Assembly: GCA_028284955.1 (NCBI GenBank)
Contig: JANQQS010000104.1
Location: forward strand, 1-64,000
Direction of reading: 5' to 3'
DNA: 64,000 nucleotides
Source of the DNA: Myxococcota bacterium
Lineage (GTDB): Bacteria; Myxococcota_A; Polyangia; Polyangiales; Houyiibacteriaceae
Shown here: piece by piece, positions 6,841 to 50,609 of the stretch
Numbering within the stretch: the first letter of the stretch is position 1
Layout: every line of letters begins with the position of its first letter
Position numbers and translations under genes: made by a program
Notes under the pieces: model-generated
Told to the model about the DNA's origin: nothing
Databases searched by the model: none
The model's input: only the letters and a program-made list of their open reading frames with translations

Positions 6841-8193
6841 TCACGATGGGTCACACACCGGCGCGGGCCCACAGACTCTGGTGTCGACGTCGCAGTACAA
6901 GCTCGTGCACTGGAGGTGCGAGCGGCATTCTGCGCCATCGCCTTTGCGTGTTTCGCACGCCTCGGACTGAGCGGCCCCGTCGCAGTAGAGGTCCGTGCTG
7001 CAAGGATTGCGGATACCGCATTCTTCCCCTACCACCCCTCCGAGATCGACGACGCACCGCTTGGTATCCTCGCTACAGCTTAGATGCCGCTCACATGGGA
7101 TAGCTTCGCACGACTCTCCCTCCGTGGCGGGCCCTCGGCAGGTACCCGTGTCAGGGTCACAACGGTCAGAATTCAAGCACATCGCACTAAAAGAACACGC
7201 CTCTCCGCGTTCGCGTTGCTTTTTGCATACACCGCCGCCGACCATCGCAAGACAGTAGAGGCCGGGGCCACATTCTTCCCCGAACCGTGGACACGGTTCA
7301 TTTTCAACAAGGGCGGGACGGCACCGAGGCCCTGCGCTTTCGTTCGTGCAACGTGTCCCACTCACGCACTGCTCGGCAACCGTGACTTCGAGTTCGCATT
7401 CGTCACCCTCCAATCGGGTGGAGGCGCACATCCTCGTATTGAACGTGCAGAACGTACCCTCTTCGCAACGGCGAGTTGGATCCACGCTGCCTGACGCCGC
7501 CCGGCATTCATCGCCCCGTTGGAGTCGTTTGGATCGCAGCTCTTCGGGTTTTTCCTCGCAGCGGCCGGGGCAGCACTCAAAAGGATTGTCGCATCGATCA
7601 CAGTAGTCGCTCTTGCATTCCCCGCTAACTTCGCACGGTTCGCCAAGCTCGGCGGTTCCCACAAACGCTGCTTCGCAGAACTCTGTTTGTTGTGCCTGGG
7701 ATACAGCGTCCGCGTATTCTTGGCTTGTGAAATCAGCGCACTGTGGCAGCAGCGCCAGGCAATCACTGGCGGCATCCTCCTGCAGTATGATGCGCCCTTC
7801 TCTCAAAGCGCGCGTGCTTGTCTGTAAGGTTCGAAGGAACGTAGGAGTTTGCTGAAGCCCACGGATGCGTGAGCTCACGCAAGCCAGTTCGAGGCTCGGG
7901 TCTGCGCATCCTGCAAGAGGCAAGCACCTAAAAAATACGCTAAAAATTGCCCCATCGGGAATGTCTTCGCCGAATAGGCCGCTTTGTGCGATGAGCGACA
8001 TAGCGTCGTCGCTAAGTTGCTCAAACGATGCGCCGGTCGTCGCTGCATCGTCTGACGCTGCATCATCTGACGCTGCATCCCCTTGTACGGCTGCATCGGC
8101 CGCGGGGTCGCGTTCATCATCCGCCATCGGCTGGGCGTCGTCACCACACGCGGCGCACGCCAAGAGCCCAACGACAAGCCCATGAAAGCGCAC
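6841..8193 (-). CDS. Cys-rich Dickkopf-like exported lipoprotein
   Basis: A 450-residue protein with a signal peptide and lipobox (LLACAAC, Cys 16). It has an Asp/Ala-rich linker containing a threefold ASDDA repeat, an alpha-helical region (residues about 55-180), and then a long Cys-rich region. That region repeats the unit (C)x(E/D)GxxCxxxxxxxx(R)C (for example GEPCEVSGECKSDYC, EGTFCTFNTRMC, GPGLYCLAMVGGGVC). The pattern is typical of myxobacterial Dickkopf-N-terminal-like surface proteins of unknown role, probably disulfide-bonded on the outer membrane. No partner gene is adjacent. Confidence 0.8.
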   Translation of the reverse strand: MRFHGLVVGLLACAACGDDAQPMADDERDPAADAAVQGDAASDDAASDDAATTGASFEQLSDDAMSLIAQSGLFGEDIPDGAIFSVFFRCLPLAGCADPSLELACVSSRIRGLQQTPTFLRTLQTSTRALREGRIILQEDAASDCLALLPQCADFTSQEYADAVSQAQQTEFCEAAFVGTAELGEPCEVSGECKSDYCDRCDNPFECCPGRCEEKPEELRSKRLQRGDECRAASGSVDPTRRCEEGTFCTFNTRMCASTRLEGDECELEVTVAEQCVSGTRCTNESAGPRCRPALVENEPCPRFGEECGPGLYCLAMVGGGVCKKQRERGEACSFSAMCLNSDRCDPDTGTCRGPATEGESCEAIPCERHLSCSEDTKRCVVDLGGVVGEECGIRNPCSTDLYCDGAAQSEACETRKGDGAECRSHLQCTSLYCDVDTRVCGPAPVCDPS

Positions 8194-8416
8194 CGAAAAA
8201 TCCTATCTTTGACATCAAATCAGCTCCGTCTACTGCCGTCACCTCCCGACTAGCTGGATACGACGCCCCTTCGCAGTTGCCAAAACGAATGGGGCGTTCA
8301 TCGACCTAGGCGGCTAGGACATCCAAAGCGCGTTGACTTCAAATCAAGCACGAAGCGAAAGCACCCGCCAGCGGGAGCGCGGGCGTACTCGCGACTGTTG
8401 TATGCGGCGACTCTAT

Positions 8417-8455
8417 GGTGAACATCCGCTCGCCCGATATGGGCGGATGTTCACC
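8417..8455. other. Strong hairpin in the 8194-8589 intergenic region
   Basis: Between two divergent lipoprotein genes, GGTGAACATC (8417-8426) pairs with GATGTTCACC (8446-8455), and inside it CGCCC pairs with GGGCG across GATAT. A weaker hairpin (ACGCCCC / GGGGCGT) lies near 8260-8296. No T-run and no coding sequence. The stretch may hold a small RNA end or a 5' regulatory structure for the gene at 8590; nothing else is visible. Confidence 0.35.
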
Positions 8456-19079: not shown

Positions 19080-19131
19080 CGTCAGACATTTCAGACTGTT
19101 TGACAACGCCCCTGGTACACGCGAGCGCAGA

Positions 19132-19420
19132 TCATTCGCCCTGCCCCAGGAAGTAGCCGCGCTCGCCATCGAGGCGATAGAGGTGCTCGGTTTTGATGTT
19201 CGCCGAACCTGCAAGCCCAACGGAAGCGGATGGCCTGCCAGCTGTCCGGCTCGATGCCTGCGCTGTGGCCACGCTCGTAGACCGCCTTGCCGACCTCGAT
19301 CTCGTCGAACTGAAGCTCCGATCCCGCAGCATCAAGGATATCGAGGGTGGCGTCCATGATCTCCGGTCCGATGCCATCGCCTCAAGCGATGGTGATGGTT
19401 CGGCTTTTGTTGCTCGACAT
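19132..19420 (-). pseudogene. Relic of NADP-type isocitrate dehydrogenase
   Basis: The minus strand begins with a good N-terminus (MSSNKSRTITIA) followed by an in-frame TGA. It continues with GDGIGPEIMDATLDILDAAG and then EIEVGKAVYERGHSAGIEP, the hallmark opening of isocitrate/isopropylmalate dehydrogenases. After about 65 codons the frame shifts and ends in NIKTEHLYRLDGERGYFL and GQGE, which matches the extreme C-terminus of the same long IDH type. More than 300 internal codons are missing. The gene has therefore suffered a nonsense mutation plus a large internal deletion. Confidence 0.75.
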
Positions 19421-19460
19421 GTCTATCCCTCGTTTCTGGGGTCTATCTCTCGTTTCTGGA
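19421..19460. repeat. Tandem 20-bp duplication
   Basis: GTCTATCCCTCGTTTCTGGG is followed directly by GTCTATCTCTCGTTTCTGGA (18 of 20 identical). It lies between the IDH relic and the TGT-like operon and may be an insertion scar or part of the operon's control region. Confidence 0.6.
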
Positions 19461-19539: not shown

Positions 19540-20991
19540 GTGTTCCACTTCGTTCCCAATCTTAAACCGTACACGTTCTTTCGTGGTCGCGGAAACCGAC
19601 GCTTTGATGCCTACCTGCTTTCCGTAGACTACATGCGCCAGCACAAGGCGCTCGCAAAACGGGTCGTGGGGGAGGAGCGTCTGCTTGCAGCCGACAACGG
19701 CAATGTCGATCTGATTCGGGAGCTCTTAGCTCGCTATGCGGGACCGGCGCGAGCCCTCGATGAACTGCGCAAGAAGGAAGAAAAAAAGCGAGGCGGCTAT
19801 CTACAGCCGGGGGAACTTTCAGCATCCCTTAGCGAGGCCTACCGGGCCCTGGCGGAAGATATCCGCGCGGCATCGAAGGAGGCGACGCATGAATCACGGA
19901 CCACCGAAACCACGCAGCTTCAGTCTGCGATGGATGCGTCCTATCTAGTCGGCATGGAAGACCTCACTGTGGCGACCATGACGGGTCTCAGCATGGAACC
20001 TGAGTACACAATGTTGCCACAGAGCTTCTACCAAGCGCTCTCCGAACGCGCGGTTCGGTTTGCGCTGGATCAACAGCAATGCCGTTACGGCATATGCAGC
20101 GGCACCGTGTTCGCAGGGCTCCACGCCATCGACTACGACACCGCTCAGCTGGCCGGCCGCCTGGCCGGCGAGGCTGGCGTGAAGGGCATCGCCTCAGGGT
20201 TGGTGGGCGCCCTCCGCGACAAGAACTACGTCGACTACCGCATCGCCGATGGCGCGCTGGTCCCCTTACCGCGCCCGGTCCCTCGCCCCTACCTGCGGGT
20301 GATGGAAATCGTCGCGGGCTACTACGTGGGCTATGGCCGAGCGACGGGGAAGCGACTGCGTTTTCACGGATTGGGGGTGGGCACACCGATTCTGCTGCCG
20401 CTCCTCAGCGTGTTCGGAGACGCGGATACGTTGCTCGCGACAGACAGCACGGCGCCGATCGTAGACGGCTGGACTTCGCCGACCATCAGTCTCTACGTGG
20501 ATCGACCGGCGCCCCTCAAATACAAAGCCCACCGCATCGCCGAATACTGGCTACGCGATGGGTACGGATGGGACTGTCCATGTCCCTACTGTCAGGACTT
20601 CATGGAGCGGCACCCTCACGATGTGGATGGCGCACGGCGCTGGTGGAAGAGCCGGGGCTCGCCACGACTCACACGGGCCGACATGCACCGCTCGAGCGAA
20701 CTGTCACATCTGTTGCCCATCCTTGGCGCCCCGGCAGACCCAAACTTGCGACGCGACGCGGCGATGACCCGGGTCGCGCACAACCACTGGGTCCTCAAGC
20801 GACTGGAAAGCGCTTCCCGACGGGCCGCACGGGAGGGCCGGCTCCGAGAGTGGGTTGCTGAGACAGTCGACCGCTACGACCGAGCGCCGATTTCCGCCAG
20901 TTGGCGGGCGGCGGTGCAGGAATCGTGGAAGCTGGCCCAGCAGGCGCTGCTCAGTATGGGAAATGTTGAACCGCAACCGTGGAACGGTTAG
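19540..20991 (+). CDS. tRNA-guanine transglycosylase (TGT)-fold protein, DpdA-like; first gene of operon
   Basis: A 483-residue protein. The region HGLGVGTPILLPLL then FGDADTLLATDSTAP (276-306) aligns with the TGT core, where MGVG is followed by the nucleophilic Asp (D302 in the TDST motif). The Zn-binding CxCxxC of TGT follows (C346, C348, C351), and an AHNHWVL motif at 413-419 corresponds to the family's His-Asn. An ADNGN segment at 51-55 sits where TGT places the base-recognition Asp. TGT enzymes exchange guanine for a 7-deazaguanine in tRNA, or in DNA for DpdA. The DS-type nucleophile motif is more like archaeal TGT/DpdA than bacterial TGT. The only available start is GTG 19540. No 7-deazaguanine synthesis genes are in the window. 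Confidence 0.65.
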   Translation: MFHFVPNLKPYTFFRGRGNRRFDAYLLSVDYMRQHKALAKRVVGEERLLAADNGNVDLIRELLARYAGPARALDELRKKEEKKRGGYLQPGELSASLSEAYRALAEDIRAASKEATHESRTTETTQLQSAMDASYLVGMEDLTVATMTGLSMEPEYTMLPQSFYQALSERAVRFALDQQQCRYGICSGTVFAGLHAIDYDTAQLAGRLAGEAGVKGIASGLVGALRDKNYVDYRIADGALVPLPRPVPRPYLRVMEIVAGYYVGYGRATGKRLRFHGLGVGTPILLPLLSVFGDADTLLATDSTAPIVDGWTSPTISLYVDRPAPLKYKAHRIAEYWLRDGYGWDCPCPYCQDFMERHPHDVDGARRWWKSRGSPRLTRADMHRSSELSHLLPILGAPADPNLRRDAAMTRVAHNHWVLKRLESASRRAAREGRLREWVAETVDRYDRAPISASWRAAVQESWKLAQQALLSMGNVEPQPWNG

Positions 20992-21040
20992 CGTAGGCAG
21001 CGCTGCCGACCTCGGCGGCTTCACTGGCAAGGGAGGGGCC

Positions 21041-22471
21041 ATGGATCCAGTGACGTCTGCGAGACAGAAGCTGCTCACCCGTGAAGCGCAGCTGCTCGAC
21101 ATTCCGGCTCGGGATCACTTCACCGAGATCAAGCAGGCTTTCGTGGATGGTGACTACGGGACCGCATCCAAAGTCGCGCGGGAGCTCCGAGGCCTCATCC
21201 TTTGCGACCTGCTGGCCTGCACGGGACGTACCCTGGATCTGCAGGAAGCACTGGCCCAAGGGGAAGAGGCGGCGGCGGATACCGCGGGTCTTCTCCGGCA
21301 AATCCGCGACGACAAAGGCTTGAAAGACCAACTGCGCACGCTCCTCGCCAAGCACCACAAGGAAGGCGACGTGATCCCGCGCTTGCCTCAGGACAAAGCG
21401 GCCTTCGCCTTGGCGCTCTTGGAAAGCAAGAAGCTTCCGCGGGTCCTCGCCGCCATGGCCAAGGAGCACGTGGTACCCGAACAGCAACTTCAACTGGAGG
21501 GGCGCATTGACGACATGGTGCTTGGGCACCTTGCAAGCCTCTACGCCGACGCCGAGCGTATCTTCGCGCGCCACCGCGTGGAAAGCCGCCGCGGAGTGTT
21601 CGAGTGCATCGAAGCAGAAGTTGCCCTCCACCGCGAAACCTTGGAAGCGCAACACGCGGAGCTCTTTTCCGCGTGCGCGGTTGGGTCCTCAAGGGCGGTA
21701 GGCTCCCTGGAGCTGGCGGCGGAACGAGCCGTCGATATTCTGGTCAAGGCGGAACAGACTCGACTGCGCTTCTCCAACCTGCTCGCAACGGTAGCCTTGG
21801 CCCAGCAGGACGCGGCAGAACGCTCTGGCCCGAGCTCGGAACACAAGTGGGCGTTGCTCAACCTGGACGTGCAAGCGTTGGTGCGCACGGGGACGTCATT
21901 GACGCTGCTCGCCTCGGCGGTGATCACGTCGGCGGCCAACCCTCGTCAGCAGCCGTGGCTCGATGGGTTGATGCGGGATGCGCGCCGCAGGAAGATTGCC
22001 TCGTCCGTAGAAGATGGGGCCAACGCCAGCGTGAAGCAGTTGGCGGACCGCATCGCCGACTACGACGACCGCTTTGTGGAAACGGTAGGGTTCGTCACAA
22101 AGCTCGAGACCTACAAGGAAGATGGCGGCAAGACTTCGTCCGCCTTTTCGCTTGTCGATCGCCGAACCGAGCGCTCGATCCGGGTGATTGCCCCCCATCG
22201 ACAGCTGGCCTACGCAGGGGTGGCTGAAGGAGCGGCGGCCCGCGTGCACGGACGCGCGTACCAAAAAGATGGCGAGCCCCGCCTACGCATCGACGTAGTG
22301 TCGCTCAGCACTGCCGCCAAAGAGAGCTGGCACGATACCTGGTGCCACGCCCTACGTGAGGTTTTTTGCTTCTGGCCCGCGGGCTTCAACGTGCTCGTAG
22401 CCCCCGCCCTCGGGCAAGCGTCCGGACCCGACCGCTATCCCGAAATAATTCGCATTCCGAGGAGGTACTAG
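21041..22471 (+). CDS. Helical protein with C-terminal OB-fold-like domain; second gene of TGT-like operon
   Basis: A 476-residue soluble protein. Residues 1-340 are almost entirely helical with coiled-coil character (LQEALAQGEEAAADTAGLL, AEVALHRETLEAQHAEL). Residues about 346-425 look like an OB-fold: FVETVGFVTKLETY, SSAFSLVDRRTERSIRV, ARVHGRAYQKDGEPRLRI. This suggests binding of nucleic acid. The start ATG 21041 has GGAGGGG 5 nt upstream. It begins 49 nt after the TGT-like gene and ends 2 nt before the third gene, so the three are co-transcribed. I recognise no named family. Perhaps it is a substrate-binding partner for the transglycosylase-like enzyme. Confidence 0.55.
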   Translation: MDPVTSARQKLLTREAQLLDIPARDHFTEIKQAFVDGDYGTASKVARELRGLILCDLLACTGRTLDLQEALAQGEEAAADTAGLLRQIRDDKGLKDQLRTLLAKHHKEGDVIPRLPQDKAAFALALLESKKLPRVLAAMAKEHVVPEQQLQLEGRIDDMVLGHLASLYADAERIFARHRVESRRGVFECIEAEVALHRETLEAQHAELFSACAVGSSRAVGSLELAAERAVDILVKAEQTRLRFSNLLATVALAQQDAAERSGPSSEHKWALLNLDVQALVRTGTSLTLLASAVITSAANPRQQPWLDGLMRDARRRKIASSVEDGANASVKQLADRIADYDDRFVETVGFVTKLETYKEDGGKTSSAFSLVDRRTERSIRVIAPHRQLAYAGVAEGAAARVHGRAYQKDGEPRLRIDVVSLSTAAKESWHDTWCHALREVFCFWPAGFNVLVAPALGQASGPDRYPEIIRIPRRY

Positions 22472-22473
22472 CC

Positions 22474-23028
22474 ATGCCCGCTACATCACCCTGTGAAGAC
22501 CTGCTCAATGACTACAAGGACGCCTCGGAGGCAGCCAGCGACAAACTGGGCGAGATGGCCGATCTGCTGCTGAACGCGACCGCGTTTACCGCTGGAACGG
22601 GCGCGCTTTGTGCCACCTGTGCCCAAGAAACGACTATGATCGTGGTCAAAGGTTTTTCTTGCGTCGCTTGCTTGACGGGCGCCGTCGTGGTTCTGACCGA
22701 CGTCTTCGAGTTTGATTCTTTGCATGACGAGTACGTGGCCCTCAGTACCACCGAGGGGGCCGCTCGGGCCGCATATCTCGCTTGTACGGTGGCGCGCAAC
22801 GCCGTGTTTTGCGACCAGACCTCGACCGATCAGCATCCCACCCCGAGTGAATTGCGAGCGGAGATGGCGGACCTGCAAAAAGAACTGGACGATGCGCTCG
22901 AAGATGCGCGGAAGGCGCTTGAGAAACAATCGGCAGACCCACCCGCCGTCGGCGACGCCGAGGACTGGAACTGGGACATCGACGACTACGCCAACGAGCA
23001 GCGCGACGAATACAACCCGTTTGTCTAG
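22474..23028 (+). CDS. Small protein with Cys-rich hydrophobic core; third gene of TGT-like operon
   Basis: A 184-residue protein, start fixed by GAGGAGGT 8 nt upstream. The middle holds two adjacent hydrophobic segments with Cys pairs (LCATCAQET, FSCVACLTGAVVVLTDVF; residues about 30-80), compatible with a membrane hairpin. The C-terminal third is a charged coiled coil (AEMADLQKELDDALEDARKA) ending in an acidic tail (DWNWDIDDYANEQ). No family recognised. A membrane-inserting small subunit next to nucleic-acid-acting proteins is a layout seen in defence effectors, but the role is unknown. Confidence 0.55.
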   Translation: MPATSPCEDLLNDYKDASEAASDKLGEMADLLLNATAFTAGTGALCATCAQETTMIVVKGFSCVACLTGAVVVLTDVFEFDSLHDEYVALSTTEGAARAAYLACTVARNAVFCDQTSTDQHPTPSELRAEMADLQKELDDALEDARKALEKQSADPPAVGDAEDWNWDIDDYANEQRDEYNPFV

Positions 23029-23254: not shown

Positions 23255-25063
23255 ATGGATTCAAACAAAAGAAGTTCATCTGTTTTTCTTAACAGTCTAA
23301 ATATAAGGACGGAGGTTGAGGAACATCCTGATGTATTGGTCGCGGGAGCGGGAGTTATGGGGCTGTTCTACGCGCTTCATCTACAAAAAATTCTTCCAAA
23401 GGCGAAAATCCTCGTTGTCGATAAACATCAGCGACCCACCTACAAGATTGGGGAAAGCACCCTTTCTAATTTCACGAAGTTTTGCAATGACCATGTGCTG
23501 CCACCCGAGTTCATGCTGCGTTTGTTCGCAGTTAAAGATGGGTTGCAATTCTATGGTGTCGATCACCCAGAGCAAACATTCTCAGACGCGGCTCATGTCG
23601 ATATCGGAGGCTTGGATGTTTCTTACCAAGTCGAACGCGATGTACTCGAACTGCTCCTTTGCCGAGTTGCACAACGCAAGGGCATCCAAGTTCTTTTTGA
23701 CTGCAAGATCAACGCGGAAGAGTCGACGATCAACACCGCGTCGAAGCACGTGCCGGTCGCGCTAAGTCGCGAACGATTCGATCTCAAACCCAAGTTCGTT
23801 TGTGACGCCACGGGTGAAGCGAGCGTTTTTGCATCGAAGTTTCAAAAACCGGTGCGTGATCAAACAGCCTGGAACACCAATGCGTACTGGGGATACTTTC
23901 GTCAGAAGAGCTCCGCAAATACAGACATCAAGCTTCCTCATTGGAATCGAGTAGCGACTCGCCATCTGTGTTTTCCCGAAGGGTGGGTCTGGTTTATCCG
24001 CTTGTTGTCCTGGGAGGGCACCTCGATTGAGAATCTCACGCGGATGATTGACTATCTTCTCGATCAACACGAAGCCGGAGTCCCAGAAGACAAGTTACCC
24101 TGCGTAACCCAGCTCGCAGAGCGTTTCGGTTGCGCTTACAAAGTCGTCATGAGCATCGGAATCACGGTTCGTACCGACGCTGACGAAGCGATCGGCCGCG
24201 ACGTTGTGGAACGAGATGCAGAGGCTCGGTTCAACTATTGGCGGACAAAATACCGCATTCTTAATGAAACGATGTCTCATTTCGATTTGGAAGAGTACGC
24301 CGGTCGTACATTCTTCGTCAGAAAGCGATTGGCCTACCGCGTGCCTCAGGTTACCGGTCGCGGCTGGCTCGCGATCGGCAATGCGTCTGGGTTCACCAAT
24401 CCGATCTACTCGCCGGGAATGAATGTCGGAGTATTGCAGTCATTCAAAGCTTCGGAGGTAACGGCGAAGTCTTTCTTCCATGGCGATTTATCCGAAAACA
24501 ATCTGATCGAAATCTATCGAGACTGGCATGAGAAAACGCTAGATTTTCTCGGGAAAGACGTCCGATTTTGGTACAACTGCTTTCGCCATCGAGACTTATT
24601 CGAGTCGATGCTCGGTACCAAGATGGCGTTCATCACTGGAAACGAGTTTCTAAATTTTCGCGCGGGGATGATGTGGGACGATCTGGCGTGGGTTTGGGGA
24701 GCATTCGACGAGAAGTTCTGCGCCTACGTAAACCAAACGTTGGATCTGCTGGATGACACGTTCCCGGACGGGAAGTTGCCAGCCGTCGACGAACAGATTC
24801 GAAGTTCGATTCGGAATGCAGGGCAAGCACTGGTCCAACAGCATCTTCTGCCCAATCTGACGACGGCGCCGTGGGGCCGCTACTTTTCGAACTACGACGA
24901 CCGTTTGAATCGAACACCAGGCAAGACAAGGCGAACTCGAGGCAACTACGAGTTCGTGCAGTGCACATCGTGCGGTCATTGGCGCGCGGATTACATGAGC
25001 ACCTGCCCCATGTGCGGAGAGAAAACGGAAACCCCGTTTTCGTATCCAATCCACACTGCGTGA
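23255..25063 (+). CDS. Flavin-dependent halogenase-like oxidoreductase with C-terminal zinc ribbon
   Basis: A 602-residue FAD enzyme. The dinucleotide motif is VAGAGVMG (29-36). KIGESTL (64-70) matches the halogenase GES motif, and GWVWFI (243-248) matches WxWxI. GNASGFTNPIYSPGM (about 376-390) is a variant of the second FAD motif GDAAxxxxPxxSxG. These mark the flavin-dependent halogenase/geranylgeranyl-reductase-like class, usually acting in secondary metabolism. The last 35 residues hold CTSCGH and CPMCGE (Cys 570, 573, 584, 587), a zinc ribbon not usual in these enzymes. The gene is visibly richer in A/T than its neighbours. Start ATG 23255 has GGAG upstream. No carrier or flavin reductase gene is adjacent. 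Confidence 0.7.
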   Translation: MDSNKRSSSVFLNSLNIRTEVEEHPDVLVAGAGVMGLFYALHLQKILPKAKILVVDKHQRPTYKIGESTLSNFTKFCNDHVLPPEFMLRLFAVKDGLQFYGVDHPEQTFSDAAHVDIGGLDVSYQVERDVLELLLCRVAQRKGIQVLFDCKINAEESTINTASKHVPVALSRERFDLKPKFVCDATGEASVFASKFQKPVRDQTAWNTNAYWGYFRQKSSANTDIKLPHWNRVATRHLCFPEGWVWFIRLLSWEGTSIENLTRMIDYLLDQHEAGVPEDKLPCVTQLAERFGCAYKVVMSIGITVRTDADEAIGRDVVERDAEARFNYWRTKYRILNETMSHFDLEEYAGRTFFVRKRLAYRVPQVTGRGWLAIGNASGFTNPIYSPGMNVGVLQSFKASEVTAKSFFHGDLSENNLIEIYRDWHEKTLDFLGKDVRFWYNCFRHRDLFESMLGTKMAFITGNEFLNFRAGMMWDDLAWVWGAFDEKFCAYVNQTLDLLDDTFPDGKLPAVDEQIRSSIRNAGQALVQQHLLPNLTTAPWGRYFSNYDDRLNRTPGKTRRTRGNYEFVQCTSCGHWRADYMSTCPMCGEKTETPFSYPIHTA

Positions 25064-25453: not shown

Positions 25454-26911
25454 GTGCACATTTTTGAACGTAAGAACCGAGTCACGATGGGGCTCGTCTG
25501 TTCGGCCTTCGCGATATCGTGCGCAGCGGACGACGCAGAACCGAGCGGTGTCCTTTTTGTCGACGCCGAGCTCAATGAAACGGATGACGAGTCGGTGTCG
25601 TCGTCGTCTTCCGCTCTCGTTTCGAGCTCCGCACGAGGCCTATATCGGGTCACCCTCACAAACCTCACCGAGACTCAACCTTTTACGCCACCAGTGGTCG
25701 CTACGCATTCGCGTCGCGTTGCGTTTTTTCGCTCCGGTGTTCCTGCGCCGCGCGGAGTTCGCGAGATCGCTGAAAACGGCAACAACACACCTCTAGTGGA
25801 TGCACTCGAACGAGTTCGCAAGTTGAGTCCTCTGGTCACTGACTTCGCGGTTGGCGTCGCTGGCGACCCGCCGCCTCTCATGCCTGGCGCGAGCGTCACC
25901 GTCGAAGTTGACGGCAATCCACGGGATCGCCTCTCCATCGCTTCGATGTTGATCTGCAGCAACGACGGATTCACCGGCATCGACTCCGTGCGTCTCCCGC
26001 GCGCCATTGGCCGCACGCGCGAATATCTCGTCAAAGGTTACGATGCCGGCAGCGAGCGCAATACCGAAGACTTCGCAGATATCGTGCCCCCCTGCCAGGC
26101 CTTGCGCGGCCTAAGCTCGGACGACGCCGGCACCGGCGAGAGCAACCCCTCTCTGGCTGAACGTGGCGTGGTACGCGTGCACCCGGGCATCGACGGATCG
26201 CTGCCTACAAGCGACCTCACTGTCGACGTTCACGGTTTCTCTCAGCCGGTCGCGCGCGTCACGATCACCCGCATCGCTGAATACGAGGTCACCATCAAGA
26301 ACCTCACGAACGGGCAGCCCCTCACGCCGCCGGTGATTGCGACCCATAAACCGGAAATCTCGTTCTTCACGCGCGGCGAAACAGTTCCGGAAGGTATCCG
26401 GGAAATCGCGGAGAACGGCAACAACGACCCTCTTGTTGAAGCGTTGAACTCTAGCGATGCAGTTTCCGACGTAGTCGTTGCCCTCGGCGATCCACCACCA
26501 GTGCTACCCGGTGCCAGCGTCACCGCCACCATTCGCTCCGACTTGCGTGGCGCTCAACTCTCTACTGCGTCCATGCTGATCTGCACCAACGACGGCTTTA
26601 CCAGTGCGTCGCTTCGCCTTCCGCGCCGTATCGGCCGTACCCGAAGCGCCTTCGGGGTCGGCTATGACGCGGGCAGTGAGCGCAACACCGAAGATTTCGC
26701 CGATATCGTGCCCCCCTGCCAGGACCTCATCGGCGTGACTTCTGAAGACGCCGGGACGGGTATGAGCAATCCGGACCTTGCCGAAAACGGCGTCGTTCGA
26801 CTTCATCCAGGGATCGATGGCTCGCTCGACACCAGCGACCTGACGATCGCCGACCACGGTTGGCCTGTCCGCGAACCGACGGTGCGTATCGACGTGCGAC
26901 GCGTCCGCTAG
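25454..26911 (+). CDS. Exported protein with two tandem spondin-N domains
   Basis: A 485-residue lipoprotein: signal with lipobox (FAISC), a Ser/acidic linker, and two spondin-N-like domains (about 65-270 and 275-485). The domains share the motifs LTNLTETQPFTPPV / IKNLTNGQPLTPPV, IREIAENGNN, LICSNDGFTG / LICTNDGFTS, YDAGSERNTEDFADIVPPC and NGVVRLHPGIDGS. Spondin-N is a C2-like beta-sandwich used in surface adhesion. GTG 25454 is chosen because AAAGGAG precedes it by 6 nt. A terminator follows. A shortened copy of its 5' leader and its last quarter lies at 30438-30937. Confidence 0.85.
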   Translation: MHIFERKNRVTMGLVCSAFAISCAADDAEPSGVLFVDAELNETDDESVSSSSSALVSSSARGLYRVTLTNLTETQPFTPPVVATHSRRVAFFRSGVPAPRGVREIAENGNNTPLVDALERVRKLSPLVTDFAVGVAGDPPPLMPGASVTVEVDGNPRDRLSIASMLICSNDGFTGIDSVRLPRAIGRTREYLVKGYDAGSERNTEDFADIVPPCQALRGLSSDDAGTGESNPSLAERGVVRVHPGIDGSLPTSDLTVDVHGFSQPVARVTITRIAEYEVTIKNLTNGQPLTPPVIATHKPEISFFTRGETVPEGIREIAENGNNDPLVEALNSSDAVSDVVVALGDPPPVLPGASVTATIRSDLRGAQLSTASMLICTNDGFTSASLRLPRRIGRTRSAFGVGYDAGSERNTEDFADIVPPCQDLIGVTSEDAGTGMSNPDLAENGVVRLHPGIDGSLDTSDLTIADHGWPVREPTVRIDVRRVR

Positions 26912-28713: not shown

Positions 28714-29619
28714 TCATTCGCCGCGTTCGCTCCACACCCAGTCCTTAGGATCCCATCGTCTGCCGAAGAGGCCGGCAAGCACGGGATCGAGGAACGCGCG
28801 GGCGGCTTCGAACGCCTCATTGACGGTGGGCCATTGCAGCTGATCCTCCTTCGCGATGGTCGCGTAGGGGACCTTCCACGTATCGGGCGGCGCCGGAAGG
28901 TGGAGAGGTACATCGTGCGTGCCACGGAAGTCGAAGGTCTGGTCGATCGCGGCGCGGAGCCGAACAGCTTCGACGGATCCCGCCGTTGCGATCAGCGCAA
29001 GGTCGGGTAGATCCTTCACCCGTGAGTTCGGGCGAGTGCGCGGCATCGTATAGGCGTGAAGCTTTTCGGCAACATGGGTCTCGACTGGGTACACGCGCAC
29101 AGTGGGGGGTGCGATACCAGCGAACGACAGCATGCCCTCGGCGACGATGACCTCGGGCTCGCCAAGCATGGGGTCACCGAACGCCACATCGATGCCGAAG
29201 GGGCGACCGTAGACTTTGCCCGCGAAGCTGCACTCGGCTCGGAAACGCATGCCGTCGTACTGCATCCCATCGTTCTGGATGTCCGGGTGACGGTCGTCGG
29301 GACGGATCGTGAACACCATGAAGTCGCCGCCGTCGCGCTTCGCGGCGGCGCGAAGCCGGTCGAGGATGTTGTCGGGCGGACCCAGCACGCGGAGGTCGAC
29401 GTCCTTGGTGGTGCGTGCCCGCCCGATGCGTAGCTCGACAGCCAATCCGCCTTTGAGCGTTACGGCGTCGCCGAGTTCGAGGGAGATGCGTGCGAGGAAG
29501 CGGTCGAACACCACGAGCTGACGCCGACGGGCGAAGTCGATGCCAGAGTTCGAGGTGGTGCGGAGTCGCTGCTCCAGCGCTTGCTTAAACGCAGCGGCGG
29601 TGCGGTACTCGCGGGTCAT
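28714..29619 (-). CDS. AbiEii/AbiGii-type nucleotidyltransferase toxin
   Basis: A 301-residue full-length toxin of type IV AbiE systems. The nucleotidyltransferase core is present: LKGGLAVELRIG, then RTTKDVDL supplying the DxD pair, and later VEKLHAY-type and KDLPDLALI motifs. AbiEii enzymes of this superfamily act on tRNA or other nucleotides and arrest growth. The start overlaps the stop of the preceding AbiEi fragment by 4 nt (ATGA). Because that antitoxin has lost its N-terminal half, regulation and neutralisation may be impaired here. Confidence 0.8.
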   Translation of the reverse strand: MTREYRTAAAFKQALEQRLRTTSNSGIDFARRRQLVVFDRFLARISLELGDAVTLKGGLAVELRIGRARTTKDVDLRVLGPPDNILDRLRAAAKRDGGDFMVFTIRPDDRHPDIQNDGMQYDGMRFRAECSFAGKVYGRPFGIDVAFGDPMLGEPEVIVAEGMLSFAGIAPPTVRVYPVETHVAEKLHAYTMPRTRPNSRVKDLPDLALIATAGSVEAVRLRAAIDQTFDFRGTHDVPLHLPAPPDTWKVPYATIAKEDQLQWPTVNEAFEAARAFLDPVLAGLFGRRWDPKDWVWSERGE

Positions 29620-30127: not shown

Positions 30128-30308
30128 CCGCGTCGTCTACAAACTACACCCAACCTTCAAGAACCCTATTCGGGTTGTGACGAACCCGGCAACAAATTTT
30201 GCACTACAGACTTCAGCTTGGGGCGAGTTTGCGATCCGTGCGGAAGTCCATCTTGACGACCGGGATGCTCCTCTTGAGCTCGAGCGCTACTTGGCGATAC
30301 AAGCCTAG
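30123..30308 (+). pseudogene. Relic of pYEATS domain
   Basis: The plus strand encodes VNRVVYKLHPTFKNPIRVV, then NFALQTSAWGEFAIRAEV, ending ERYLAIQA and stop. This is the C-terminal half of a prokaryotic YEATS-like domain (the YxLHPTF...P and GWGEF-type motifs). There is no start codon and no partner effector domain. pYEATS domains occur in predicted prokaryotic conflict and signalling proteins. Confidence 0.5.
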
Positions 30309-30437
30309 TCGCAGAGAAACCCTGGCTGACCGCTACGCGTGATTGTTTGAACGAAAACCCCCGCGACGAGCATCTCGACACGGGGCCTGTCTACTGTTTG
30401 GTCGGAAGTTCGACCCGTTTCGAAACTGGCTCCCGGC

Positions 30438-30937
30438 GAGGCCATGCAATCTTCGATGCCTATCGTCATGGTGAGCCCACAGTGCCGAGTGGCTGCGGAA
30501 ATTCGATCGACCTGTCGCATAAACTCCAACGTGAGCAAGTCGACCAAACGGAGGACCAGGACGCACCAGATGACCGTCCAGCTTGAATGCACGCTCGAAT
30601 TTTCGAGGTCGCAGAACCGGTCACCGTGAGCGCGTCGCTTCGCCTTCCGCGCCGTGTCGGCCGCATCCGACGCACCTTCGGGGTCGGCTATGGCGCGGGC
30701 AGTGAGCGCAACACTGAAGACTTCGCCGATATCGTGCCCCCCTGCCAGGACCTCATCGGCGTGACTTCTGAAGACGCCGGGACGGGTATGAGCGACTCGG
30801 ACCTTGCCGAGAACGGCGTCGTCCGACTGCATCCAGGGATCCATGGCTCGCTCGACACCAGCGACTTGACGATCACCGACCACGGTTGGCCTGTCCGCGA
30901 GCCGATGGCGCGCGTCGACGTGCGACACGTTCACTAG
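30438..30937 (+). pseudogene. Truncated duplicate of spondin gene
   Basis: The first ~190 bp match the leader of the intact spondin gene (25241-25453). They are joined at about 30627 directly to the last ~100 codons of its second domain (ASLRLPRRVGRI, GSERNTEDFADIVPPC, NGVVRLHPGI). About 1.1 kb, including the signal peptide and the first domain, is deleted. A GTG at 30627 could give a 103-residue cytoplasmic product, but it would have no signal sequence. Confidence 0.8.
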
Positions 30938-30998: not shown

Positions 30999-31451
30999 TC
31001 AATCCGATGCGGCGAGAATGTGGCCTAGTGCTTCACGGACTACTCCCCATCGAGCTCGGGGTAGTGGCGAAAGATGCCGTCGTTGTTTCCGCCTCTCGAA
31101 TGTGTTGTGGATTGCCTCGGCAAGCGTCTTTCCTTCGAAGTCAAACGCGTCCAACAGAATCCACAAGTCGTAGAAGTCCTTCATGCGGCTATTGGCCATA
31201 TCCAGCGATACCATCGTCTCCAACTTCTCTGCGACAACGGTCTCGCGGAGGTATGCGCGAATATGAGGCTGTGGAAGGTCCAGTAAGCCTGGGAAGACTA
31301 CTGGCTTCGGAAGTGGCGTGATGGCGTCGCCGAAACCGACGTCCACTTAAAACGGGATCTTTGCTCTGTGAAGCTCTCCTAAGGACTTCACGCGTATGCC
31401 CTCATAGACCTTGTCCTCCCGAATCAGGCTCGCGGATAGACTAGACAAGTT
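30999..31451 (-). pseudogene. AbiEii toxin relic with nonsense codon
   Basis: The minus strand reads DKVYEGIRVKSLGELHRAKI-PF, then TAA, then in the same frame VDVGFGDAITPLPKPVVFPG and RAYLRETVVAEKLETMVSLD. It goes on to KDFYDLWILLDAFDF: the C-terminal two thirds of an AbiEii toxin. A single AAA-to-TAA change explains the stop. The N-terminal GG/DxD part is absent. It belongs to a different AbiEii lineage from the genes at 28714 and 45675. Confidence 0.7.
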
Positions 31452-36228: not shown

Positions 36229-37312
36229 CTAGGCTCCGCCGTCGCCCTGCTCCGAAGCGGACAGCCGCAGCGTGCGCTCGGCCTCCTCGCGCTCGCGCTC
36301 GAGCTCTTCCCGCAGCTCGTCCTCTGTCGGGAGGTAGAGCTGGTAGCGGCTCGCGTGGACCTGGTGGTTGTCCTCGGGCAGCGTGATCTTCACCATGGCG
36401 TCGTTCTTGTCGGAACAGAGCACGATGCCGACCGTGGGCGCTTCGTGTTCTTCGCGCTGGTGCCGGTCGAAGTAATTCACGTACATCTGCATCTGACCCA
36501 GGTCCTGGTGGGTGAGCTTGCCGAGCTTGAGGTCGATGAGGACGAAGCAGCGCAGCAGCCGGTTGTAGAAGACCAGATCGACGTAGAAGTGATCGCCTTC
36601 GAGGGTGAGCCGTCTTTGTCGTGCGACGAAGCAGAAGCCCTTGCCCAGCTCGAGCAGGAACGACTCGAGGCGATCGATGATCGCTTGCTCGAGGTCGCGT
36701 TCGAGCCACGCGGACCGTTCCTGCAGGTCGAGGAACTCGAGAACGAATGGATCCTTCACCACGTCTTCCGGGGTGGTGATGGTCTGCCCCTGTCGGGCGA
36801 GCGCCAGAACTTCGTCCTTGTTGCGGCTCTTCGCCAGTCGCTCGAAAAGGAGGGAGGCGATCTGACGCTCCAGCTCGCGGACCGACCAGCTCTCCTTCGC
36901 GGCCTCGATCTCGTAGAATGCGCGGGCACGATCGTCCCGGACGCGAATGAGCGTGAGGTAGTGACTCCAGCTCAAGGCCGGGGGAAAGGGCGCAGGGCTG
37001 TCGGGGCCAGAAAGGCTCAGCGGTGTCGAGCCTTTTTGGACCGGCGCGAAAAGGATCAACGGTGTTGAGCCTTTCTCGTCCGTTGGGGCTGCCAAGGCCG
37101 AACCGCTCGAAAACGTTAGATAAAACTGCTTCATCCGCTTTCACTGACGGGTAGCTGAAGCCGCGGCCAAACTGGTCGCTGAGCCGGCGAGCCAGGGCGC
37201 GCACGAGCTCGTCGCCATACCCCGCTCGAGCCTGACCGCGCTGCTCGACCTCGACGATCTCTACGGTCTTCGGACCGGGCCGCTTTGGATTTCCACAAGG
37301 TCGGTTCGCCAT
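36229..37312 (-). pseudogene. YhcG/DUF1016-type PD-(D/E)xK nuclease, frameshifted
   Basis: The N-terminal frame from 37312 (MANRPCGNPKRPGPKTVEIV, QARAGYGDELVRALARRLS, FGRGFSYPSV) is a DUF1016 N-terminal domain. The C-terminal frame from 37134 (MKQFYLTF...LEFLDLQERSAWLERDLEQA, DHFYVDLVFYN, CFVLIDLKLGKL) is the nuclease domain with its D...D-L-K core. Removing one A from the AAA after FSYPSV would join them as SVKRMKQFY, the usual family reading. Members are often found beside restriction or defence genes. A truncated nuclease domain starting at 37134 might still be made. Confidence 0.7.
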
Positions 37313-37452: not shown

Positions 37453-38625
37453 GTGGATTCTGAGAAGCAGGAATTTGTAGTTCTCGCGGAGAACCTCCGG
37501 CGGCTGAGGCAAGCGAGGAACCTCAGCCAGGCTGCGCTTGCGGAGCAGGCGGGTCTGAGCCGCGTTGGCTATCGCAACATCGAGACGGGTCGGGCCATAC
37601 CCAAAGCCGATACTTTTGCGCGACTGGCGTCTGCGCTTGGCGTGGGTCTGGACGACTTGGTGCGTCCTGTTCGTCGGTTGTCCTCTGTGCGCTTTCGCGC
37701 TCGGAAGAAGTTGGCTAGTCGTGAAGCGCTACTTGCGGATGTCGGCAAGTGGATCGACGACTATGTCTTCATCGAGGAGCTGTGTAGGGACGCGGCGCCA
37801 TTTAAGTTTGAGGACGTTGCAAAGAAGCTTCGGCGGTATCGCCGCAGCGATGATCTACCGGCGCGCGCGGCTCGTTTGGCTCGTGATGCGATATTGAATC
37901 AGCAAGAGACCATTCGCGACATCTCCGGCTTGCTCGAAGACAACGGAATCAAGGTCTTTACGCCGCAGATTGCCAGCGATCAGTTCTTCGGTTTGTCGGT
38001 GGCGTCTCAAGATGGTGGGCCCGCGATCGTGGTCAATACCTGGGAGCGGATCACCGTCGAACGTTGGATCTTCACCGCGGCGCATGAGCTGGGACATCTA
38101 CTGCTTCATCAGGATGCCTACGATGTTCAACGAACGGAGGAGAGTGAAGCGGAGGAGCGTGAAGCGGATCAATTTGCGAGCCACTTTCTCATGCCCGATG
38201 AAGTGTTCCAAAAAGAATGGAACGAAGCCAAGGGCCTCGCCTCAATCGATGCGGTCTTCAAGTTGAAGAGCATCTTTCGGGTGAGCTGGAAGACGGTGGT
38301 GTACCGCTTAGCAAGTGAGCGGGACGATCCAAGAAGGGTATGGGCTCAGTTCTACAGCGGGTACAAGCGGCGTTATGGAAAGTCGCTGAAGGCTGCGGAG
38401 GAGCCGAATGGATTGATCCCAGGCGATTTTCAGTCGCCATCGCCCGCGCTTCGAATCGCCGAGGAGCCAGAGCATCTCGGCGCCAGTGTATTTCAAGAGG
38501 ATCGGCTCAGCCGTCTTGTACGCCAAGCGGTCGATCAAGATCTGATTTCGTTGAGCCGCGCCGCCGAGGTTTTGGGACTCTCGACGGTGGAGATGCGACA
38601 ACTCGCAAACTCTTGGTTGGAATGA
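37453..38625 (+). CDS. XRE-family HTH protein with ImmA/IrrE metallopeptidase domain
   Basis: A 390-residue regulator-protease. Residues about 10-70 are an XRE HTH (LRRLRQARNLSQAALAEQAG, SRVGYRNIETGRAIP). Residues about 130-290 are the M78/ImmA-IrrE peptidase with the zinc motif TAAHELGHLLLH and the distal EADQFASHFLMP. Such fusions cleave a repressor or antitoxin after stress, or act as antitoxins in COG2856-type pairs. The usual small partner gene is not seen; only fragments follow (38626-39228). GTG start without an upstream Shine-Dalgarno. Confidence 0.8.
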   Translation: MDSEKQEFVVLAENLRRLRQARNLSQAALAEQAGLSRVGYRNIETGRAIPKADTFARLASALGVGLDDLVRPVRRLSSVRFRARKKLASREALLADVGKWIDDYVFIEELCRDAAPFKFEDVAKKLRRYRRSDDLPARAARLARDAILNQQETIRDISGLLEDNGIKVFTPQIASDQFFGLSVASQDGGPAIVVNTWERITVERWIFTAAHELGHLLLHQDAYDVQRTEESEAEEREADQFASHFLMPDEVFQKEWNEAKGLASIDAVFKLKSIFRVSWKTVVYRLASERDDPRRVWAQFYSGYKRRYGKSLKAAEEPNGLIPGDFQSPSPALRIAEEPEHLGASVFQEDRLSRLVRQAVDQDLISLSRAAEVLGLSTVEMRQLANSWLE

Positions 38626-39271: not shown

Positions 39272-42200
39272 TCAAAAAAACGGGCGGCGCCGACTCCGAT
39301 TTCTCCCACGAACGCGAGAGCGCGCTCTCCGGCGGCGCGGTCGGTTGCGGTGGCCAGTTGCGCGGCCGTCGATTACATCTAGGGCGTCGGTCGCTGCCGG
39401 TGCGTCGGCCGCCAGAGCTGCTTCGAACAGGTCGTGAGTCCGGTCCAAGTGCCCCGGTAGCGCCAATCTGAGGGCGGTGCTCAGCGCGAGGCATTCCGAG
39501 ATCACCACGTAGGTGGATTGCGTCTCCAATGCTAGCGCTCGAGCGAGAATCTGCTCGGTGAGTTCTAGGACGAGTTTCGGATATCTATCGACGAATCTCT
39601 CCAGCAGAACGACAACCTGCCGTAGTGCTTCGGCGTCCATCTCGCCGACCCGGGGAAGGACGCATTGCAGAACCTGTTCGCAAGCCGCGTCCGATTTCCA
39701 TACCTCTGGCTCGAACGTTCGAGTCATCAGAAGGTCTAGGTCCTTCATGCGCATCGATGGAATCCACTTGGCCGCAATTTGGCTGGACTTCATGCGCCGA
39801 TCCGATTCACCGAGCAATGAGCCGGTTGCTGCGATCACTCCCGTGGAGATGTCGGCAGCAACCGGAGACTCACACCAGCCATCAAGCAAGTGTTCAGCCC
39901 AGGTCTCGCCACGTGGGTCGGTTGCGATAAGCACCGCGAGTTCAGCGGCGGGGACCCAGAGCTGCTGCGTGACGAGACGCTCGATCCATTTCTTCAAAGC
40001 GCTCGAGCCCACAGAGGCGCGATGACAAGCGTAGATACGAGTGATGGCGCGAGCACTGGCCGGCGAGAACGCCATGTCGGCTACCAGGTCCAGTAGGGCG
40101 AAAGCACGTTGGCCGCCCAGCCACTCCCAATACCGTTCCCAATCGGAGAGTGCGAAGGCCCAGATTCTTGGATCAGGCGCTGCTCGCAGCGCCGCATGAA
40201 CAGCCTGTGACCAAATTTCCGGCTCGGCAGCCTTCCGCCGGGAGAAGTGGAGGACCAGGGCGCGGAGCCACCGATACGCGCCCGACGGCACGGTGCCTCC
40301 GCCCCTCTGGCCGAACAACGCGAGTCGCTGTCGGTTTGGTCCTTCGTCAGACGGATCTTCCTCGTTCCCGTGGGGGTCGTGTCCCGTCGACTGCTCCTCT
40401 GGTGCGGCGCGCTCCAGCCTTTGGAGGATTGCGGTGACCGAACTCTCCGCGAGTGCCTTGCGTGACGAGATGATACCTAGCGCCCATGCGCACTCGTCGT
40501 CTACTTCCAGCGCAACGTTCCCACGCGCTCTCAGAGAGAGCGCGAGCTGTTCTATAAAGGCTGGGTCCGGATGATGCTCTGCAACAGAAGTGATCAGGCG
40601 CCGTCCTCGGTCGATCTCACCGTTGTCTCGGAGCTGTTGAACGAGCGTTGCAACTCGCTCCGGGTCTTGTTCGGCGAGTTTACGTAGCTCAGAGAGAATC
40701 TGATCGCGTCCACCTATCGGGCGGTCGGCCTCGTCAAAGGAAAAGAACGATGGGCGCTCCTTGTCCAGAGCCTTCAGCACCGCGGCATCGTTGGCCCGCG
40801 AAAGTTGGCCTTGCGAGAGAGGACTGACGACGAACTCAACTCTGGGTCCCCGACTCGGCTCGAAGGGCGGCCCCGGCAACTGATGGCGTTCTGCTTCGTC
40901 GAAGGCGATGCGAGACGGGCCACGCGACGACTGGGGAAGGCGGTCGCGGAGGCACAGGCGATAGCGGCGATTGGTTCTCTCTCGGTCTCGTCGCCGCTCC
41001 GCGGATTCGCTGGATCCGCGTCCGGGATAGCGAACGGCAAGGTCGATGGCAGCGTCAAGGGCGGTCACATGCTCGGCGCGAAGCTGCTCGCGCACCGCCT
41101 CGAGGAAGTAGATGGATTCTGGATCGACCGACAGCCGCGAGGGATCAGATGCCAGCCATGACACCCGTTGGTCCAACTGACCCTCCAAATGTGCGAGCAC
41201 GCGGAGATACGCCGGCAGGAGCGGTGAATCGCCCTCGACATGGGAGGCCAGTTCGATCACGGTATCCGGCTGTTCCTTCGCAAATCGCTGCAAGAGCTGC
41301 TCATGAGCTTGCGAAAGCTGTTCGCGAAAGTCGTGGGCTGAGGGTGTGTAGTCCCGCGAGAGGAGTTCAGTTGCAATTGGTTCGAGGTGCTGTAGTGAAA
41401 AGTCTGGGGCAGCTTTCAGTTCCAATAATTCGTCGAAGGCGCGCACGTCCCTAGAGATGGGTTCGGCTGCATATGCAGCGCGTCCTGCTTCGCGAATGCA
41501 CTCCACACACAGGCTTACGGCACGATGTGGGTCAACCTGTGCGACTGCTTGAGCGATCGGGCCGAACTCAAAGTGGGAAGAACGGACGAGGTGAGGCACG
41601 AGCCTCTCAATCAGCGGGTCTGCTTCGGGGCCAAGTTGTGCCGCCCAAGAGAGCACGCCAACAATGCGTGAGCGACCTTCGTCGGTACCGAGCCAGTTCT
41701 GCTCCAACGCACTCAGCGCGGCCACGGGCTCGACGCGTAGGAAGCCCGAAGCCAAGAGTGCCGAGTGCTCGGGGTAGTCGGCCATCCATCCGCTGATCGA
41801 GCCGGAGAGCGACGCCAACCATCCGTCTCGAAGTGCAACCCCGTTGAGGGCCCGACGACGGGTGAGGTCGTCATCCACCGCCTTGAAAATCAGCCTTCGC
41901 TCCGACGGGCTTGGGGTGTCGGCCTCCAAGACCGTGTCGATGACGAGTAGCCGCACGTGTAGGGAGTCGCCGGCAAAGAGTGCCTCCGCGAGATCTTGGT
42001 ATGCCTTTGGATCTGCCGTTCGTAGGTGAAGAAGCGCGCTCCGCACTAGAGGCCGAATCTCGAGCGAACGCTGATGCGCAGTAATGAACGACTCCAAACG
42101 ACCGTCGTTGATGAGGCTTCGCGCACGGGCGAAATCAAAGATCGATTGGTGCCTGAATCCGATCAAGTTGCCATCAGGTGACTTGCGGAGCATTCCCGAC

Positions 42201-50535: not shown

Positions 50536-50536
50536 G

Positions 50537-50609
50537 CTCCAGGAGCAGGACTCGAACCTGCGACCAAGCGGTTAACAGCCGCCCGCTCTACCAACTGAGC
50601 TATCCTGGA
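50537..50609 (-). tRNA. tRNA-Asn (anticodon GTT)
   Basis: A 73-nt cloverleaf: acceptor TCCAGGA / TCCTGGA with discriminator G, D-arm GCTC-AGTTGGTA-GAGC, anticodon loop CTGTTAA giving GTT, T-arm GCAGG-TTCGAGT-CCTGC. CCA is not encoded. The 3' half is copied four more times within 3.3 kb to the left, as expected for a tRNA used as an integration site. Confidence 0.95.

Follow-up and report, generated by a model that had tools for sequence, protein, structure and literature searches.

Enzymes of the tRNA-guanine transglycosylase (TGT) fold are known to modify tRNA, to mark DNA and, as a recent finding, to modify protein in phage defence. Asp280 is the nucleophile of TGT according to PMC3660597. 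In type IV cyclic oligonucleotide-based antiphage signaling systems (CBASS), as described in PMC11996544, the TGT-fold protein Cap10 binds or handles a nucleobase attached to protein, and a seven-component HerA/FtsK system related to bacteriophage exclusion (BREX) has, according to PMC12839542, a TGT without homologues of DpdB or DpdC. This study concerns three adjacent genes, here called A, B and C, in a 64,000-nucleotide stretch of DNA from a Myxococcota bacterium (positions 1 to 64,000 of contig JANQQS010000104.1, assembly GCA_028284955.1), which as a whole is referred to as the window. Protein A is, by its predicted fold, a TGT-superfamily enzyme of an undescribed family, and protein B, which is modelled with an oligonucleotide/oligosaccharide-binding (OB) fold, is conserved beside it. 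Of the functions considered for the pair, base exchange on nucleic acid is the most probable. What is new is the A family and the A-B pairing, within a known fold class; no pairing of a TGT with an OB-fold protein in myxobacteria was found among the open-access PMC matches listed, which is no proof of absence.

All three open reading frames (ORFs) lie on the forward strand where an earlier note, made from the sequence alone, had placed them. Gene A (19540..20991, +) starts with GTG and encodes 483 amino acids (aa). Gene B (21041..22471, +) encodes 476 aa from its ATG, in a frame that is also open upstream from a TTG at 20855, and its product is predicted to have a helical N-terminal part and a C-terminal OB domain. 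Gene C (22474..23028, +) encodes a small acidic protein of 184 aa with 7 Cys and one hydrophobic segment. The gaps are 49 nt between A and B and 2 nt between B and C. Seven genomes of the phylum carry A, namely the window's own (G000), the two Enhygromyxa genomes G366 and G351, and G451, G415, G526 and G009; four of the six relatives are full length at 28-52% identity and two are partial at 47-52%.

Fold and family of protein A

The earlier note had taken A for a TGT/DpdA-like enzyme and had asked for a structure prediction. The AlphaFold model, built from 7 aligned relatives (predicted TM-score 0.77, mean predicted local distance difference test score (pLDDT) 71.8), is a TGT barrel. When it was compared with the PDB using Foldseek, rows 1-29 were all TGTs, with E values from 1e-4. 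VIA-align placed archaeosine TGT first (1iq8, Z 19.5, root-mean-square deviation (rmsd) 3.5, 297 residues aligned), its tRNA complex second (Z 19.0) and bacterial TGTs at Z of about 16. Profile comparisons agree with the structural matches. Against a canonical TGT profile, made from 5 of the 7 full-length TGTs of A-carrying genomes, the A profile scored E 2.5e-4, with the alignment running across the zinc and HN region. Against a profile of seven DpdAs, of which three are plasmid-borne, one is from G366 and three come from other phylum genomes, it scored E 6.5e-4, and here the alignment covers strands 5-8 with the nucleophile. In a column-shuffle control none of 100 shuffles reached either score. 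As a yardstick, the DpdA and TGT profiles matched each other at E 8e-9, so A is more remote from both of them than they are from each other.

None of A, B and C exceeded a cut-off in Pfam or NCBIfam or matched PADLOC, and none had a PHROGs match better than E 0.09. The TGT family PF01702 matched only one of the seven A members at all (E 0.27, 10.7 bits against a cut-off of 26.3), and this match at the C-terminus is the sole library hint for A. The PDB added nothing usable by sequence: the best E for A alone was 0.47, and the A profile reached E 0.002 against designed helix repeats, where no one stretch passed by itself. A fold search of BFVD found no match at E <=0.001. The best 50 structural matches listed do not include 7ui4, a solved relative of DpdA, which excludes nothing.

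Two known families were considered for A and rejected. Membership in DpdA was rejected since NF041059 (NCBIfam) and the PADLOC DpdA models missed all five full-length A members while scoring a true DpdA, P0004, at E 1.9e-164 and 3.2e-168. There was also no match to DpdB or DpdC among A, B and C, and the DpdA model had no match in the whole of G000. The earlier note, too, had seen no dpdB, dpdC or dpdD gene adjacent. Across 356 genomes of the phylum the DpdA model found 23 at E <=0.001, with only 3 over the model cut-off. A genuine DpdA does occur in G366 (G366:C163, locus L041), with a DpdC-type gene upstream and DpdB downstream, on another contig than A-B; its recognition shows that the libraries detect DpdA when it is present, although G366 was not among the matches listed in the 356-genome search and was either outside that draw or missed. 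An ordinary queuosine-pathway role was rejected because all seven carrier genomes hold a separate TGT over the Pfam cut-off (partial in G526).

Catalytic and pocket residues

The motifs of A are in place: ADNG with D52, FHGLGVGTP from residue 275, TDST with D302, and C346-P-C348-PY-C351. The codon of D302 (20443..20445, +) is at the nucleophile position, where hhalign places it on the Asp of DpdA SFDST. D52 (codon 19693..19695, +) would be the first catalytic Asp, an equivalence that comes from strand order in the model (ADNG versus TDSG/GDCG). The zinc-type motif (20575..20592, +) aligns with the zinc Cys cluster of TGT. It had been suggested that loss of the Asp and Cys positions in homologues would speak against a TGT-like enzyme, and no such loss was seen: D52 is present in 7/7 aligned A rows, D302 in 6/6 readable rows and CxCxxC in 5/5 readable rows, down to 28% identity. 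The fourth zinc ligand is uncertain (HN in 4 of 5 A rows, SN in G009).

Around these positions A has a mixture of features. H-x-x-G on strand 7 is found in A (6/6) and in DpdA (7/7) and in none of five canonical TGTs, and the nucleophile motif is DS[TSA] in A (6/6) and DpdA (7/7) whereas canonical TGT has FDC (5/5). The pocket differs from both. On strand 6, GG (DpdA 7/7, TGT 5/5) is replaced by G-Leu or G-Met in A (6/6), and on strand 5, QG (TGT 5/5, DpdA 6/7) is replaced by HA in 6 of 7 A rows and by SG in the remaining one. In the Zymomonas mobilis TGT these positions read the base. Strands 5, 6 and 8 were aligned by hhalign and strands 3 and 4 by strand order; MAFFT aligned the N-terminal halves of A, TGT and DpdA wrongly, and its alignment was not used for them. 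Overall, A resembles DpdA in its TGT barrel, its start near the first strand, H-x-x-G, DS[TSA] and CxCxxC, and differs from it in failing the DpdA models, in the changed GG and QG, and in having an OB-fold partner and no DpdB or DpdC. It shares with Tgt and archaeosine TGT the fold, the catalytic Asp pair by position and the zinc motif, but lacks the GG and QGG signatures and the FDC context, and its score is under the Pfam threshold for TGT. Elsewhere, other TGT-like proteins were noticed that carry H-x-x-G and a DS-type nucleophile motif (L065 in G309, L053 in G312 and L074 on a Nostoc plasmid).

Protein B and its linkage to A

The B model has a mean pLDDT of 45.5 overall and is confident at about residues 330-421, which form an OB fold. 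The domain (residues 318-429; 21992..22327, +) matches human Ten1 best (4joi_C, VIA Z 13.3, rmsd 3.1, 99 residues aligned), then archaeal RPA and MCM OB domains (Z about 12) and the OB domain of asparaginyl-tRNA synthetase (AsnRS; Z 12.1); the comparison covers this C-terminal domain, as the rest of the B model is too poor for one. A and B are adjacent in five of the six genomes with readable flanks. In G366 they form a single ORF of 998 aa, and G351 has a shortened in-frame A-B fusion. A second B remnant, frame-broken and with no A alongside, was seen in G351 (L032, about 7464-8450 of G351:C133).

Leave-one-out hidden Markov models (HMMs) tested against 297 decoy ORFs recovered A in 5 of 5 cases at E <=5e-60, and B in 4 of 4 (G000, G366, G009 and G451) at E 7e-13 to 2e-20; the window B matched a profile of its G366, G009 and G451 relatives at E 4.7e-18. 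Apart from the targets, the best row in the B runs came from a true relative among the decoys, the remnant of B in G351, and the next was at E >=0.05. With both proteins recovered in this way, A and B form the conserved core of the locus, and their order varies between genomes. The earlier proposal of an OB-fold partner is thus borne out by the model, by conservation beside A and by the fusion in Enhygromyxa.

The third gene and gene order

The order is A-B-C in the window; A-B fusion and then a small gene in G366; the shortened fusion and then the same small gene in G351; B, small gene, A in G009; and small gene, B, A in G451. In G415 two unrelated genes precede A. The contig of G526 ends inside A, with transposase genes upstream that we presume to be IS3-type.

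Window C has a Kyte-Doolittle mean of 2.24 over 19 residues from residue 56, within a hydrophobic stretch at about residues 53-74 (22630..22695, +). The small proteins of the two Enhygromyxa genomes, G366 and G351, have a hydrophobic stretch too, as does a small neighbour in G415 that is unrelated, but those next to B in G009 and G451 lack one and show no detectable similarity to C. Leave-one-out searches with C gave E 19 for the window, 15 for G009 and 0.61 for G451, and nothing for G415; decoys reached equal or better values. The small genes of the two Enhygromyxa strains matched each other only (E 3.6e-18 and 4.6e-10). By sequence comparison, then, C appears to represent no conserved family, and the third gene is a positional feature only. 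The hydrophobic, Cys-rich protein that had been described for C is there, with its 7 Cys, but a conserved membrane effector is not supported. The co-occurrence of three genes that the earlier note had asked about was recovered for A and B across genomes and not for C or for a fixed order. A strict three-gene module was rejected, as C scores at decoy level outside Enhygromyxa and no recognisable B is in G415.

Distribution

A-B is so far known from a few myxobacteria and is patchy among them. A single-sequence search found A in 4 of 377 genomes of the phylum and a profile search in 6 of 317 genomes of the class, the window's own included in both counts; A was present in 3 of 29 genomes of the family of G366 and in 1 of 71 of the class of G009. 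With a wider A profile, 5 of the 377 genomes matched at E <=0.01; one of these matches, in G349, was a 36-position fragment with a stop and was set aside. Full-length open frames with conserved catalytic positions occur in five genomes from two classes. Plasmid, phage and IMG/VR collections held no A relative at the sensitivity used. One contig scan found no A relative, and a second, with two peptide patterns, gave 5 loci, all in genomes already known as carriers; neither pattern fits the A of G451, so relatives can escape this second scan and it does not show absence beyond the phylum. The whole-genome searches scored few candidates per genome in large sets, and distant relatives may escape them.

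For B, the profile at E <=0.01 matched 6 of 317 class genomes: G000, G451, G366, G351 (two places), G415 and G491. The match in G415 is circular, as the G415 neighbour was a profile row, and that in G491 (16.5 bits, with a stop) was set aside. In the class of G009 the profile matched 4 of 71 genomes, G009 itself and three weak matches in G156, G029 and G014 that were set aside; those ORFs are presumably two AsnRS and a secreted OB protein.

Possible functions of A and B

The explanation preferred here is that A is a competent transglycosylase and B its nucleic-acid-binding OB partner, together forming a heteromeric base-exchange enzyme, a reading that is judged to have an even chance of being correct. 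B would bind a single-stranded stretch, which might be single-stranded DNA (ssDNA) or a loop of RNA, for example the anticodon loop. Using Asp302, A would attack a purine at its glycosidic bond, keep the resulting covalent intermediate and put a different base in place. C would be a fast-changing or replaceable accessory. Several observations weigh against this explanation. Residues 298-351 of A, the nucleophile included, are mostly modelled at pLDDT <50, most of B outside the OB domain is modelled at low confidence, OB folds bind other things besides nucleic acid, and G415 has an A without a recognisable B (HMM E 82). The pocket changes could also mean that base exchange has been lost in A; one of the 7 DpdAs, though, also has His for the pocket Gln, so the QG change alone does not exclude activity.

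For the supply of preQ0, QueC is full length in G366, G351, G451 and G415 and was not found in G000 (96.55% complete) or G526 (82%). A QueC match in G009 is doubtful (23.3 bits against a cut-off of 22, over 59 positions) and the ORF is presumably a LarE-type ATPase. The absence of QueC claimed from the sequence thus holds both for the neighbourhood of A and, as far as was found, for the window's genome; QueD, QueE and QueF were absent from the six neighbouring genes scanned, with no genome-wide search made. Since the pocket is altered and QueC was not found in G000, de novo preQ0 cannot be assumed for A. YhhQ-family transporters are present in 6 of the 7 carrier genomes, with two in G000. YhhQ is a preQ0 importer according to PMC6884629, so base import is possible in G000, and a salvaged 7-deazaguanine is a possible inserted base. 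G009 has two full-length canonical TGT genes (G009:C101 and G009:C102), and neither a YhhQ-family transporter nor a clear QueC was found there.

One specific form of the preferred explanation is a second tRNA-modifying transglycosylase in which B serves anticodon-type recognition. Archaeosine TGT and then its tRNA complex are the best structural matches of A, and AsnRS structures are among those matched by the OB domain of B; the B profile also weakly picks two ORFs in the class of G009 (E 4.1e-4 and 0.0068) that we take to be AsnRS. On the other hand, A is rare and patchy (the phylum searches gave 7 genomes), which is not the pattern of a housekeeping tRNA enzyme, and ssDNA-binding OB folds match B equally well. 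This form, whose likelihood is contained in that of the preferred explanation, is unlikely when taken by itself. Also unlikely is that A-B represents a new class of transglycosylase machine with a role in immunity or conflict between bacteria, in which the rebuilt pocket inserts a base beyond the known 7-deazaguanines or joins a base to C or B, B chooses a single-stranded target, and the replaceable C is substrate, inhibitor or effector.

A defence role like that of Dpd, in which A would mark host DNA and B and C or genes elsewhere would recognise or cut unmarked DNA, draws on the H-x-x-G and DS[TSA] motifs that A has in common with the seven DpdAs and not with the five TGTs, and on the surroundings of the operon. 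Of ten window proteins scanned with PADLOC, chosen by the analyst from beyond the first 19 kb (which lay outside the scan), five match conflict-type families 5.7 to 27 kb downstream. The conflict-type genes form a loose cluster at 28714-50015 of the window: an AbiEii (28714-29619, -) and an AbiEii fragment (30999-31346, -), a YhcG/DUF1016 nuclease (36229-37134, -), an HTH-M78 protein (37453-38625, +), a 1647-aa GT4-conflict and NACHT/STAND protein (39272-44215, -) and an OLD/AAA_15-like ATPase (48345-50015, -), with a tRNA-Asn gene near the end of the cluster (50536-50609, -). These surroundings are suggestive for the window only. PADLOC matched one of nine genes near A in G366, G451 and G009; it is a G366 gene for a regulator-like protein, whose best match (mad1, E 1.8e-10) covers residues 11-62. 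The G415 neighbour of A had no match, and in G009 a ParE-type toxin gene lies next to B. Against such a role, no recognised nuclease, helicase or DpdB/C-like gene is present among A, B and C, no QueC was found in G000, and the phage, plasmid and IMG/VR sets gave no A relative at the sensitivity used. It is judged rather improbable, and A-B-C as a defence system is unproven.

A role like that of Cap10, in which a remodelled TGT fold binds or handles a nucleobase on a protein such as C or B, is less probable again. The fold of A is kept while its pocket positions are altered, small genes of unrelated sequence lie directly beside B in five B genomes, and type IV CBASS provides a precedent (PMC11996544): both proteins are of the TGT family, with non-tRNA partners and a remodelled site, a likeness drawn from the description of Cap10 and not from its sequence. 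In that account, however, the QueC-like Cap9 makes the conjugate, and no such protein was found among A, B and C or in G000. No Cap9 or CD-NTase was recognised beside A either, B and C having no PADLOC match and the immediate flanking genes encoding a fatty-acid hydroxylase and a halogenase family member. The strictly kept catalytic Asp positions and the nucleic-acid-type OB domain of B also argue against this role. The TGT of the BREX-related system likewise lacks DpdB and DpdC homologues but is accompanied by PglZ, DUF6079, STAND, DUF4007, HerA and GNAT components (PMC12839542), and A by an OB protein and a small protein only.

That the locus is a decaying or selfish relic with no present function is very improbable: the patchy distribution, the shortened fusion and frame-broken B remnant of G351 and the transposase genes beside A in G526 would fit it, but five genomes of two classes have full-length frames in which the catalytic positions are conserved, and the operon spacing is tight. 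With its catalytic positions kept, its pocket changed and a dedicated OB partner, the A family would be a testable lead to a new base modification, and it would raise the question of how a separate subunit steers TGT-fold enzymes to DNA or RNA.

Immediate surroundings in the window

On the 5' side of the operon lies an antisense remnant (19091..19420, -), probably of icd, in which three-frame translation gives an N-terminus with an in-frame stop and a C-terminus in a different frame. Its name is presumed from icd-like motifs; Pfam had no match for its 88-aa ORF. The tandem duplication that the earlier note had reported beside the operon is real, with two copies of 20 bp at 94% match (19421..19459, +) on the 5' side of the remnant. 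The arrival by transfer that had been proposed from these features is unproven: the patchy distribution fits it, but the G+C fraction is 0.627, compared with 0.603 for the window.

Downstream, the next gene (23255-25063) encodes a tryptophan-halogenase-family protein with a weak C-terminal zinc-ribbon-like match. Further on lies a Spond_N-domain gene (25454-26911). It seems to have a second, partial copy at a distance of about 4 kb, since an antisense ORF there and another at 30305-30934 encode almost identical peptides.

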